Positions 41,592-45,987 of a stretch of 45,987 nt of DNA are shown piece after piece. Both the position numbers and the translations under genes were made by a program. A model generated the notes under the pieces. The model made no database searches. It saw nothing but the letters and a program-made list of their open reading frames with translations, and was not told the DNA's origin. Location of the stretch: contig CP016202.1 in assembly GCA_003433295.1 (NCBI GenBank), forward strand, positions 83,941-129,927, written 5' to 3'. The stretch's first letter is position 1, and every line of letters begins with the position of its first letter. The DNA is from Eubacterium minutum ATCC 700079 (GTDB lineage Bacteria; Bacillota; Clostridia; Peptostreptococcales; Anaerovoracaceae).

Positions 41592-42464
41592 ATGAGATAT
41601 GAGGGAGATATTTACAGACCGCCAAGTGAAGCGTACAGCCTCCTGCTTCAGGTGACGGTGGGCTGTACGCACAACAAATGTACATTCTGCAGTATGTACA
41701 AGGACAAGAAATTCCATCTGCGCAAGATGGAAGAAGTTCTTGAAGACTTGGAAGAAGCCGGGAAATTATACAGACATGTCGAGCGTATTTTTCTCTGTGA
41801 CGGAGATGCTCTATGTCTTGGCAACGAGAAACTTATGGTCGTGCTGAACAAGATAAAAGAGGTTTTTCCCGGGTGCAGGCGTGTCAATGTCTACGGCAGG
41901 GCGAGCGATGTATTGCGCAAAACACCGCAGGAACTCAGACAGCTTTATGAAAACGGAGTCAGGATGGTGTATATCGGCGCTGAATCCGGAAGCGACAGGA
42001 TATTGAAGAAGATACAAAAAGGAGAAACGGCAGCCGAGTTGATCCGGGCGGTTCACATGATTGAAGAATCGGGAATCAAGGCGTCTGTTACATTTATTTC
42101 AGGGATTGCCGGAAAGGAAGGATGGAGGGAGCATGCCGTTGAAACGGGCAGGATGATAAGTGAAATGAATGCTTCATATGTTGCGCTGCTCACGCTGATG
42201 CTCGACCCGAGAGCACCAATAATGCAGGAAATAGAACGGGGAGAACTTGAACTTTTATCCCCGGAAGAGGTGATGGCGGAAACATATCTGATGATGGAAC
42301 ACATGAATCCGACAAAGCCGGTTGTGTTCAGGAGCAATCACGCATCCAACTACTTATCGCTCAAAGGAACTTTGCCGGCGGATAAGGAAAGGATGATGAG
42401 CATGCTCAAAAGGGCTATGGAAGATACGGGAATGCTTAAAGACGAAAGGTTTAGGATGCTCTGA
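41592..42464 (+). CDS. Radical SAM protein (CX4CX2C type)
   Basis: This 290-residue protein binds a [4Fe-4S] cluster through C25, C30 and C33 in VGCTHNKCTFCSMYKDK, a CX4CX2C variant found in this Clostridial family. The SAM-binding landmarks of the partial TIM barrel follow: FLCDGDALCLG (GGE-like position), VYIGAESGSDRILKKI and ASVTFISGIAGKEGW. A methionine/charge-rich C-terminal helical tail ends the protein. The substrate is unknown. Its stop codon overlaps the start of the next gene by one base (TGATG), so it is made together with the degenerate radical SAM homologue. It could act on a small molecule or on a protein partner. Confidence 0.85.
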   Translation: MRYEGDIYRPPSEAYSLLLQVTVGCTHNKCTFCSMYKDKKFHLRKMEEVLEDLEEAGKLYRHVERIFLCDGDALCLGNEKLMVVLNKIKEVFPGCRRVNVYGRASDVLRKTPQELRQLYENGVRMVYIGAESGSDRILKKIQKGETAAELIRAVHMIEESGIKASVTFISGIAGKEGWREHAVETGRMISEMNASYVALLTLMLDPRAPIMQEIERGELELLSPEEVMAETYLMMEHMNPTKPVVFRSNHASNYLSLKGTLPADKERMMSMLKRAMEDTGMLKDERFRML

Positions 42465-43939
42465 TGAGGCTGCTGCTTACCACGCTGAACAAAAAAAACA
42501 TATATGCGAATTTGACACTGAAATATCTTTATTGCATTGTTTCCAACTCCGGGTTGGATGTAACGCTCAAAGAGTATTCGACGGGAGATGATTTGGATTT
42601 CATATTTACCGAAATTGTAAGAGGCGGGTATGACCTTGTCTATTTCGATTGTTTCTCATGGAATATAAGCAGAACCGGAAAACTTTGCCGCGATTTGAAA
42701 AATGCGGAAGTCGGCATTGATATTTTGCTCGGCGGTCCTGAAACCGGAGTAGGAACCGAAGGATTCATGAGAGAAAATCCATGGGTTGATTTCGTCATAA
42801 GGGGTGAGTGTGAAAAACCGTTTTCGCAGTTTGTCGGAGAATACGTCCGCATTGAAAATGCCCGCAGGGAGAGCGGTACAGTTGCTTCTGAAGAGGGTAA
42901 CTACGACTTCGTGGATTCCCTTACATACAGAAAAAACGGAAAGATCGTCTCTACGCCGGGGGGATCGCTGCCTCCGATGGAGAATCTGCCTTTTCCGTAC
43001 ACGCATCTTGAAGTTGAGCAGGATAAAGTCATATGCTATGAATCGTCGAGAAGGCGAAGTGTCGGCGGCAAACAGGGTCCTTTCAAAAACATGTCGTTTG
43101 AGCGTGTGTGCAGGGATGTGGGATATCTGATGTATAAAGAAGTAAGAGAGGTCGAATTTACGGACGGCAACTTCAATCACAATCCCGCAAGAGCTGCCAA
43201 CATCTGGAAATATCTGATCGGCAAGGATAACGGAGTGACCGATTTCACTTTCCGGGTATCCGCGTCCAATCTCGACGATGAGGCATTTCGTATCCTCAGA
43301 AAAGCGAGAAAAGGAATGTTCAGGCTCAAGATGCGATTCAAGGAAACTTCTTTGCCTGAACTGGAACGACTTGCTTCAATGGATAACGTAGAAACATGCG
43401 TTAGTCTGACCGCAGGACTACCGGATGAAAATTACGGAGATTTTGCCCGCTCGTTTGACATGTTGCATGGTGTGGAACCGACACGCCTGAATATTGAATT
43501 CCTGAAAGTTACGGCGGATAAGGAGTTAAAAGATGTTTTGCGCGGATACGGTTACAGGTACAGGCAGGATGCCCCTCATGAAGTCCTTGCGACGGATTCC
43601 ATGTCGGCGTTGGACTTCGTCAAACTCAAGATGATCAAAAACGTCGTGGATATATTCCGGAACGGAAAAGGATTCCGGAAAAGCCTCGATTTTCTCATGG
43701 ATGAACTTGGCTTCGGCGCTTTCAACTTCTATCAAAGACTTGCGGATTTCTATTACGGGAAGGGTTTTCATACCATGAACCGTGACATGGAAAAGCTGTA
43801 TGAAGCGATTTGCGGATTTGCGGAGAACTTTGAGGAGACAAGTACGGGAATAGCGGGCAGAACAAAGGACTTTTTGACGATGGACATGCTGGAAACACCT
43901 GTTTCGGGTGAGTCCGGAAAAATTGATGACAATCGATGA
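42464..43939 (+). CDS. Degenerate B12-binding/radical SAM (DUF4080-type) protein lacking Fe-S cysteines
   Basis: The 491-residue product resembles DUF4080 proteins along its length. It has an N-terminal B12-binding-like domain (LLLTTLNKKNIYANL, ILLGGPETGVG, VIRGECEKPF; residues 1-130), then a radical-SAM-like barrel and a C-terminal helical domain. Where active members have YESSRGCPFxCxYC, this protein has Y192-E-S-S-R196 followed by RRSVGGKQGPFKN, with no cysteine at all. FVDRTFN-type and EIGVQST-type segments also read FTDGNFN and KMRFKET. The frame is open and codon use is normal, so it is not a recent pseudogene. It is probably a non-catalytic partner or cobalamin/SAM-binding scaffold for the upstream radical SAM enzyme. 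Confidence 0.75.
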   Translation: MRLLLTTLNKKNIYANLTLKYLYCIVSNSGLDVTLKEYSTGDDLDFIFTEIVRGGYDLVYFDCFSWNISRTGKLCRDLKNAEVGIDILLGGPETGVGTEGFMRENPWVDFVIRGECEKPFSQFVGEYVRIENARRESGTVASEEGNYDFVDSLTYRKNGKIVSTPGGSLPPMENLPFPYTHLEVEQDKVICYESSRRRSVGGKQGPFKNMSFERVCRDVGYLMYKEVREVEFTDGNFNHNPARAANIWKYLIGKDNGVTDFTFRVSASNLDDEAFRILRKARKGMFRLKMRFKETSLPELERLASMDNVETCVSLTAGLPDENYGDFARSFDMLHGVEPTRLNIEFLKVTADKELKDVLRGYGYRYRQDAPHEVLATDSMSALDFVKLKMIKNVVDIFRNGKGFRKSLDFLMDELGFGAFNFYQRLADFYYGKGFHTMNRDMEKLYEAICGFAENFEETSTGIAGRTKDFLTMDMLETPVSGESGKIDDNR

Positions 43940-43957
43940 TAAAGGATGGAGTTTACC

Positions 43958-45073
43958 ATGAACGGGAAGATACGCAAAGACAGAATAGCAAAATACCTGA
44001 TACCCAAACTGGAAGATGAGTTTCTTTTCGATGAGTTTTCGGATAATTATCTGAACAGATGCGGGTTGAAAGACGTATTGTCCGGGGTCCCCATACCCGT
44101 AAAAAAGACCGGAATCGGTGACTTGAGCGCATTGAATGTCGCAAAGAACATGGCATACGTAATGGGATGCGACATAAATTTCAGGTATGCGGAAAGTTAT
44201 ACTAAATATATAAAGAGAGTGTTTAAAGACGGCTTTGTGCCGTATTTCCTGCAGCAGGGGGTGGAGTGCGCCGAAAAAGACGATTATGAGGGAGCGTGTA
44301 TATTTTTCAGGGCATGCATACAGATCGATCCCGACAACAGGGATGGATTTTACTGCTACGGCAGAGCCTGCAAAGACGCATATGAAAACGGCGAAGAAGA
44401 AGAATACGTGGGAAGATTCAAGGCCGAATCTTTGGAAGCGTTTGAACATCTGACTTTAATGGCGAAAGACTTCGACAAGGGCTTTTATTTCCTCGGGTTC
44501 GGTTATCTCAACCTCGGACTTTACATAAAAGCAAAGCTGACATGGGAAAGATTTCTCGAGTTGTCCGCAGACAAGGATATGCGGGAAGAAATAGAATCGC
44601 TGCTCGATAAACTTGTGGAGCCGTGCAGAATAGAAGAGGGCTACAACGCCGTCATAAGCGGAAGATACGAAGAAGGGCTTGACATTCTTGAAACGTATAA
44701 GACCGACAGAAGATTCAACTCATGGTGGCCTCTCCGTTACTATATCGGTATAGCGTACAAGGAGGTCGGAAGAAATTCCGATGCAAAGAATATGTTTCTT
44801 GAAACCCTAAAGTTGTCGCCCAGCAACATTGACGCCATGAAAGAACTGGTGGATATTTATTCTTCCGACGGCGATGAAAAAAATGCTGAAAAATACAGAA
44901 ACAAGATTCGCATCGTTGAGGGGAATATTGAACTGGACAGACAGGATAGGGACAAACTGCAAAAACACAATGATGAACAGGGCAATGACAAACCGTACGA
45001 TGGCGAAGCGGAGAATGATAACACGGACAACGGCGAAGCGTGTAAGGAGAAACCGGCATCTTTATTGTCATAG
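43958..45073 (+). CDS. TPR-repeat protein with charged C-terminal tail
   Basis: The product of about 371 residues is cytoplasmic with no signal peptide. Residues 1-80 form an unrecognised domain. From about residue 90 helical tetratricopeptide-like repeats appear, for example AEKDDYEGACIFFRACIQID, FYFLGFGYLNLGLYIKAKLT and IGIAYKEVGRNSDAKNMFLE. The last 60 residues are acidic and low in complexity (Asp, Asn, Glu, Lys), ending KEKPASLLS. ATG 43958 is chosen because GGAG lies six bases upstream; ATG 43946 has almost no spacing. It follows the degenerate radical SAM gene by 18 bases. TPR proteins scaffold complexes, so it may hold the two upstream proteins together. Confidence 0.78.
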   Translation: MNGKIRKDRIAKYLIPKLEDEFLFDEFSDNYLNRCGLKDVLSGVPIPVKKTGIGDLSALNVAKNMAYVMGCDINFRYAESYTKYIKRVFKDGFVPYFLQQGVECAEKDDYEGACIFFRACIQIDPDNRDGFYCYGRACKDAYENGEEEEYVGRFKAESLEAFEHLTLMAKDFDKGFYFLGFGYLNLGLYIKAKLTWERFLELSADKDMREEIESLLDKLVEPCRIEEGYNAVISGRYEEGLDILETYKTDRRFNSWWPLRYYIGIAYKEVGRNSDAKNMFLETLKLSPSNIDAMKELVDIYSSDGDEKNAEKYRNKIRIVEGNIELDRQDRDKLQKHNDEQGNDKPYDGEAENDNTDNGEACKEKPASLLS

Positions 45074-45138
45074 ATGACGGGGTGAATTCATGGATGACGG
45101 AGGGAAAACTGCTTTTACGCGAAAGGAGGAGTCTGTCA

Positions 45139-45987
45139 ATGCTTGAAAAATTTGGACAATCAAGAGTCTTAAAGCCTAAAGGATATTTCCCCGTATTGTC
45201 GTGGAAGATCGACAATTCCGAAGAATTGCGAAGCGGTGAAATGCGAGTATCCATTGAAAGAATCAAAGTTGAAGAAGGCAGTTTTAGACAGCTATGCAAT
45301 TCATGCAACTACAAGGTCGAGTCGATAAGGGAAAGGATAATAAATCTTGTCGAGGAGAGAGGAAAGTTGCACAATCATTTAACCAACAGCGGAGGGATTT
45401 GCCTCGGCACCGTGGAAGAGATAGATGATGACTATCCCAATGAACAGAATTTAAAGGTTGGAGATAAAGTCATAGGAATTGTTTCACTGACGTCGATCCC
45501 GATCAAAATAGAAAAAGTAAAGAACATAAATTTTAATTACGGTCAAATCGAGGTTGAGGGATACGGCATTTTCTTTTCCACAAGCCCGGTGTCAAAATTG
45601 GACCTTCCCATACATGAAGAAATTCTCCTGTCTGCGTACGACGAGTCCGGTTCCATCGCGAAGGCGGGAAAACTTGCAAAAGACGGCAGCAGATTTCTCA
45701 TACTGAGCAGCAAAATCATGATGGCGCTTATATATGCTGCGGCGGTCAAGTTTTCCAACAACTCGCAGTGTCATATAACTGTTCTGCTTGAATTGGATCC
45801 CATGCCCAATCTTCCACACGGTGAAATAGAAAAGATGCTTAGAGATTATGTCGATGAACTCCACATAACCGCACCCGTATCTCCTGTCGAAAATTACAGA
45901 CTCTTAAACAAAAAAACGAATTATAACGATCCCAAGATGCTTTTTGACAGCAGCATAGTGTGTTCGAATATGCTCGGAGTCGAGGCG
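45139..45987 (+). CDS. kdd: L-erythro-3,5-diaminohexanoate dehydrogenase, 5' part
   Basis: The visible 283 residues run off the right edge without a stop codon. AAAGGAGGAG lies eight bases before the ATG. The N-terminus SRVLKPKGYFPVLSWKIDN and the segment VEERGKLHNHLTNSGGICLG match Kdd proteins of lysine fermentation, in which L-erythro-3,5-diaminohexanoate is oxidatively deaminated to 5-amino-3-oxohexanoate with NAD. A Rossmann-type nucleotide-binding region should include SRFLILSSKIMMALIYAAA. The remaining lysine pathway genes (kamA, kamDE, kce, kal) are not in the window and may lie to the right. The sequence may also be a Kdd paralogue with another role. Confidence 0.75.
   Translation, partial: MLEKFGQSRVLKPKGYFPVLSWKIDNSEELRSGEMRVSIERIKVEEGSFRQLCNSCNYKVESIRERIINLVEERGKLHNHLTNSGGICLGTVEEIDDDYPNEQNLKVGDKVIGIVSLTSIPIKIEKVKNINFNYGQIEVEGYGIFFSTSPVSKLDLPIHEEILLSAYDESGSIAKAGKLAKDGSRFLILSSKIMMALIYAAAVKFSNNSQCHITVLLELDPMPNLPHGEIEKMLRDYVDELHITAPVSPVENYRLLNKKTNYNDPKMLFDSSIVCSNMLGVEA

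Follow-up and report, generated by a model that had tools for sequence, protein, structure and literature searches.

Recognition of radical SAM proteins relies on their cluster motif. Among solved structures, the best matches to the protein analysed here were CysS, TokK, AprD4, MgmA, TsrM and OxsB, and the motif-bearing members of its own family, DUF4080, matched CysS at 5.9e-39 and TokK at 1.1e-34 by sequence. Family residue Trp66 aligns with TokK Trp76, which, like CysS Trp75, sits under the cobalt according to excerpts of PMC13331322 and PMC12846815. In the PMC literature searched, no paper on DUF4080 was found, and nothing listed there (PMC10754289 included) described radical SAM pseudoenzymes or Cys-lacking radical SAM proteins. 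A search on Elp3 likewise gave nothing on point, and no earlier description of a conserved Cys-less DUF4080 clade was listed.

A Cys-less DUF4080 homologue was analysed within a 45,987-nucleotide stretch of Eubacterium minutum ATCC 700079 (the window; coordinates are positions in it, and the homologue is called the window protein). We consider it fairly likely that a B12 radical SAM enzyme has become a folded pseudoenzyme at least twice, with a binding role tied to a TPR protein.

The window gene and its neighbours

The gene (42464..43939, plus strand) starts with ATG, is open and encodes 491 amino acids: an N-terminal B12-binding-like Rossmann domain (42464..42847, plus strand, aa 1–128), an in-frame linker insertion of about 15 aa (42848..42892, plus strand, limits from one alignment), the former cluster loop, shortened and without cysteine (43037..43090, plus strand, aa 192–209, from alignments and the model), the site of the canonical FQFEIGIQS strand (43322..43345, plus strand, aa 287–294) and the DUF4080 C-terminal region (43547..43894, plus strand, aa 362–477, from Pfam). 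Its ATG overlaps by one base the stop of an upstream gene for a small radical SAM protein of 290 aa with its cysteines present (41592..42464, plus strand), and a TPR protein gene (43946..45073, plus strand) begins 6 bases past its own stop; an earlier note on this DNA had described the gene as open and tightly coupled to its neighbours.

The window protein scored above the Pfam cut-offs for B12-binding (PF02310; 6.5e-10, 39.3 bits, gathering score 32.1) and DUF4080 (PF13311; 6.5e-23, 82.3 bits, cut-off 22.9) and under the cut-off for Radical_SAM (just 0.0058). No NCBIfam family was above cut-off for the window protein, one motif-bearing and one Cys-less homologue, the small radical SAM protein or the TPR protein. 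Searching the genome (1.9 Mb, two contigs) with the window protein at E 0.001 found a single DUF4080 copy and no second one; the clade-profile search described below gave a second, weak match in G000 (2 matches). A related-locus search queried with the window protein returned no relative.

The upstream radical SAM protein (41592..42464) carries GCTHNKCTFC, a CX4CX2C spacing as against the usual CX3CX2C, and its C25, C30 and C33 are invariant in all 8 aligned genus members. An ORF at 45082..45987, still open at the window end, had no Pfam match above cut-off; it presumably resembles a lysine-fermentation dehydrogenase.

Loss of the cluster cysteines

Residues 192–209 of the window protein are YESSRRRSVGGKQGPFKN, with zero cysteines, the cluster loop YESSRGCPFRCSYCLSS... 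having become the shorter YESSRRRSVGGKQG... In the family alignment the three cluster columns, all Cys in the 122 motif-bearing rows, hold gap, gap and Ser in the window row, so that the radical SAM CxxxCxxC motif is absent. A frameshift-aware alignment, made against a profile built from 27 relatives, scored equally with and without frameshifts and gave a single in-frame path; no alternative frame therefore restores cysteines. This confirmed the earlier note's reading of a YESSRGCPFxCxYC segment turned Cys-free, and the hidden cysteine-bearing frame that it had named as a possible refutation was not found by that alignment. A frameshift, or compensating frameshifts, as the cause of the loss was likewise unsupported, and a by-eye likeness of an alternative frame at about 43050–43110 to the ancestral loop was dropped, since the frameshift-aware alignment found none.

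The proposed end-to-end alignment with DUF4080 proteins stood insofar as the protein is a full-length homologue, but the profile alignment showed five net length differences from the profile majority: the linker is longer by about 15 aa, and there are deficits of 2 aa right behind it, 6 aa at the cluster loop, 12 aa following 'GMFR' and, in one more place, 4 aa. The 12-aa gap was placed later by MAFFT than by the profile alignment; for the FQFEIGIQS strand, MAFFT shows the conserved residues replaced and the profile alignment shows them deleted.

CxxxCxxC was present at the aligned place in all 29 other loci first fetched, including 7 congeners. Within the genus the gene occurs in 8 of 17 genomes, and the seven carriers besides the window all keep the three cysteines. 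The loss is therefore local and lineage-specific, an outcome that the earlier note had named as one that would refute its reading.

A separate Cys-less clade

The window protein matched 184 of 349 genomes of the family. The alignment set comprised 164 unique ORFs of at least 430 aa from 233 loci (3 of 167 were shorter and dropped), some rows being ended by contig edges or broken (G150). CxxxCxxC was present in 122 rows and absent from 42, namely the window and 41 others. The 122 rows of the motif-bearing group, which is defined by that very motif, represent 114 distinct genes; the 8 duplicates were kept and down-weighted in column counts. In a FastTree phylogeny with the cluster-loop columns removed (all supports are FastTree's), 41 of the 42 Cys-less rows came out as a single clade (support 1.0); the window grouped with its congener L002 (0.857) within the clade of its genus (1.0). 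A conserved Cys-less clade, which the earlier note had proposed to look for with a tree, thus exists, but the window lies outside it; membership of the window in this larger clade was rejected on that placement.

The 41 rows are all distinct and come from 40 genomes in six genera of the window's family: g50, in which all 32 copies read at that stage were Cys-less (9 of its 44 matching genomes were left out of the fetched set), and g42, g43, g79, g80 and g83. Five further Cys-less copies (g50, g79), read after tree building, are outside the tree. No cluster cysteine remains in 29 of the 41 rows, one in 10 and two in 2. A clade profile found matches in 327 of 393 genomes taken from the order; the 35 rows at or above 751 bits were all within the family, all read and all Cys-less, and the next row, well separated from them at 533 bits, was the motif-bearing G161 (L047).

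At all 13 Cys-less-clade loci that were read, the DUF4080 gene lies between argS on the upstream side and the TPR gene on the downstream side, as it does in the window, and the order argS, small radical SAM, DUF4080, TPR recurs at six complete loci of the window's genus besides the window itself. The clade proteins are positional orthologs of the window protein. The small radical SAM gene had no match at these 13 loci or at the G351 locus.

Two divergent mutS2-argS-DUF4080-TPR blocks (L240, L241), both Cys-depleted, occur in genome bin G262, which could be a mixed bin. Motif-bearing DUF4080 genes split into two ORFs each were seen at L110 (the same DNA as L225, G150), L292/L297 (G157) and L313 (G163), and are pseudogenes or assembly errors.

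Among the 15 closest disjoint pairs in each group, dN/dS was 0.040–0.111 for the clade (13 pairs with finite dS) and 0.031–0.111 for motif-bearing proteins (14 pairs), several dS values exceeding 1. The ranges are similar, and the Cys-less clade protein is therefore about as constrained as the enzyme. Because this independent clade is under strong purifying selection, retained Cys-less versions are real.

Conserved residues lost and gained

Reference columns were defined as those with a weighted conservation of 90% or more among motif-bearing rows, 93 in all. Of these, the window retains 22 of the 31 that fall in the B12 domain, both linker columns, 23 of the 53 barrel columns and 6 of 7 at the C-terminus; the sister L002 keeps 90 of 93. 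Losses in the window coincide with those in the clade: the window has lost 25 of the 32 columns lost in the clade vs 15 of the 61 kept there (Fisher p 8e-7; 9e-7 with the cluster loop excluded; 2e-4 for the barrel without the loop; 0.007 for the B12 domain, or 0.06 at a 0.5 threshold), p values that are guides only, as positions of a single protein depend on one another. At the 0.5 threshold the window keeps 42 of 56 clade-kept columns and 11 of 37 clade-lost ones.

The lost positions alternate along strands (Q222, K224; H255, E257; Q280, E282, G284, Q286; H321, D323, I325; Q352, G354), a sequence pattern that suggests that the lost side chains face the barrel interior, and their neighbours F225, D227, F254, G327, L328 and P329 are kept. 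In the B12 domain of the window protein Trp66 is kept, and the changed positions include H14, T39, I40, N41, S62 and Y64. Of the 122 motif-bearing rows, 120 have Trp66, as does the window, against none of the 41 clade rows.

Forty-five columns were scored as gained, that is, conserved in the clade (at least 0.8, weighted) and rare in motif-bearing proteins. They include His62 (39 of 41 clade rows vs 0 of 122; Asp in the window) and Cys209 (38 of 41 vs 1 of 122; also Cys in the window), and the clade carries an RGxxDR...P loop that the window is without. The window shares 13 of the 45, a number reached by 2 of the 122 motif-bearing rows and approached by congener L006 with 11, so these columns are at most a weak sign of convergent gains by window and clade.

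B12 use and a possible intermediate sequence

B12-related genes were counted in 35 hand-picked genomes, mostly chosen for completeness (PF02310 search at E 0.001). Matches to the B12-binding domain other than the DUF4080 protein numbered 3–7 in 14 motif-bearing genomes (excluding G351; some below the Pfam cut-off) and 0–2 in 15 clade genomes (Mann-Whitney p 4e-6), and CobS was found in 14 of 14 vs 5 of 15, being missing in 10 (Fisher p 2e-4); both tests ignore relatedness. The DUF4080 protein was the sole B12-domain match in 7 of the 15 clade genomes (G094, G117, G095, G065, G249, G250, G252) and in none of the 14 motif-bearing ones. Four DUF4080-less congeners had 1–5 such matches, and CobS in all four. 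The window genome keeps CobS and two other B12-binding-domain proteins; B12 loss therefore does not explain the window, and is not supported as the cause there.

G351 (L245, 2342–3865) is sister to the Cys-less clade. It keeps RDCLYTCSYC and differs at 34 of the 93 conserved columns, B12-domain ones among them; PF02310 and CobS searches of its genome found no other B12-binding-domain match and no CobS. Judged by these residues, G351 may represent a halfway state, with B12-domain and barrel residues gone and the cluster cysteines present.

The TPR protein as a proposed partner

The TPR gene follows the DUF4080 gene in the window's genus and at all 13 loci of the clade that were read, which makes its product the natural candidate partner. 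Within the genus the TPR gene and the upstream radical SAM gene each had a match in 17 of 17 genomes, and 9 of the 17 keep these two without a DUF4080 match between them; in those nine the TPR protein persists and hence does not need DUF4080, so it can work alone. The nine form one clade (support 0.996), for which one loss suffices and repeated loss within the genus is not needed. From this distribution, the DUF4080 protein may modulate the TPR protein or may have another client.

Retention or decay of the window gene

A two-omega codon model (6 taxa, hand-simplified topology, several branch lengths at the upper bound) gave omega 0.082 on the window branch vs 0.046 elsewhere and rejected omega 1 (p 1e-9), the window's synonymous sites being saturated. 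On the same branch omega was 0.068 for the small radical SAM gene (background 0.019) and 0.050 for the TPR gene (background 0.029), so the rise is not special to the DUF4080 gene. Loss of catalytic residues under purifying selection, the mark of a pseudoenzyme, was found in the clade, and for the window, a single genome, omega 1 was rejected with saturated dS. The description as a retained pseudoenzyme fits the clade clearly and the window probably; for the window, which has no close Cys-less relative, in-frame integrity and patterned residue loss argue for retention.

A serious rival for the window, although an unlikely one in our estimate, is that the gene is a decaying remnant, under relaxed selection once the activity had become useless and still open by chance. 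Its cysteines are gone, nine of the 17 genomes of the genus already have no DUF4080 gene at this place, and the gene, known from one genome, evolves as fast as a decaying gene would: its FastTree branch is 0.89 vs about 0.21 for L002 (about four times faster), the flanking radical SAM and TPR proteins together being just 1.5-fold apart (0.280 vs 0.182), and the window protein is 49% identical to L002, which is 67% identical to L003. The single loss that accounts for the nine absences speaks against decay, however, as do the preferential keeping of clade-kept columns and a frame without stop or frameshift. In neutral drift simulated from L002, only 5 of 2000 runs were stop-free at 20% changed residues and 1 of 2000 at 25%, which argues that selection acted on the window frame for much of that time, though not necessarily today. 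That the sequence is wrong through sequencing or assembly, or that the frame was misread, is extremely improbable: it is a bare possibility given one genome only, but no shift was found, the changes are spread across the protein, and the codon-position GC of the gene is like that of its neighbours.

That the protein has been neofunctionalised, its Rossmann domain and altered loop binding something else, overlaps with the preferred explanation and differs from it in the ligand. We regard this as somewhat doubtful: the 45 gained columns of the clade, with His62, Cys209 and the new loop, point towards it, but the window has Asp at 62 and no such loop, and its share of those columns is matched or nearly matched by motif-bearing proteins. 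A broader version, rather less likely than not, is that at least two conversions gave rise to a conserved protein that is free of cofactors and has a new binding function, the larger clade's together with the loss of B12 metabolism; the former cofactor pocket with its near-invariant His62 may then accommodate a different ligand and exert its effect by way of the TPR protein.

The reading that we favour remains a folded pseudoenzyme, retained. In the window lineage the cluster cysteines are gone, along with many of the conserved residues of the barrel and some of those of the B12 domain, and the same conversion took place independently in the clade of related genera, where it goes with reduced B12 use. 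That reduced B12 use suggests that the enzymatic role had become expendable, while a second, non-catalytic role may have kept the fold. Dozens of related species have lost the same parts yet keep the protein under strong selection, so it probably does some other job; we infer that this job does not involve catalysis, and favour a binding role in which the protein would serve the co-encoded TPR protein, or its client, as scaffold or regulator.

Here a group of species keeps a Cys-less ortholog under selection of about enzyme strength, and there is both a possible intermediate and a second, independent case. This makes it testable by what steps an enzyme with two cofactors gives up its chemistry, whether the loss of B12 use drives that change, and which second function the enzyme may have possessed from the start. 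DUF4080 proteins of the Cys-less-clade genera should not be annotated as radical SAM enzymes, because the one clade member that was scanned still passes the Pfam Radical_SAM cut-off (35.5 bits vs 29.5).

Predicted structure and comparison with known enzymes

The AlphaFold2 model of the window protein had pLDDT 89.9 and pTM 0.87 (93.4 and 0.90 for motif-bearing L054), an intact fold being favoured by the use of an alignment from motif-bearing homologues; the former cluster loop was modelled as a beta hairpin with moderate confidence (block pLDDT 73–79). Against CysS 9n1d the VIA Z score was 25.6 for the window model (463 residues, rmsd 3.5) and 31.3 for L054 (495 residues, rmsd 3.5), and against TokK it was 21.8 for the window model. 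By homology, synteny and barrel fold the window protein belongs by descent to the radical SAM superfamily and, within the pseudoenzyme reading that we hold fairly likely as a whole, is a folded derivative of a class-1 cobalamin-dependent radical SAM enzyme.

Its fold matches CysS and TokK over most of its length and its Trp66 aligns with TokK Trp76, but it is without the cluster cysteines, has many conserved barrel residues replaced and carries a DUF4080 tail. The motif-bearing DUF4080 proteins of Clostridia are orthologous to it and lie at the same locus in genus and family; they have CxxxCxxC, whereas the window protein and the 41-member clade do not. As in pseudoenzymes in general, the enzyme fold is kept with catalytic residues gone, the protein being conserved clearly in the clade and probably in the window.
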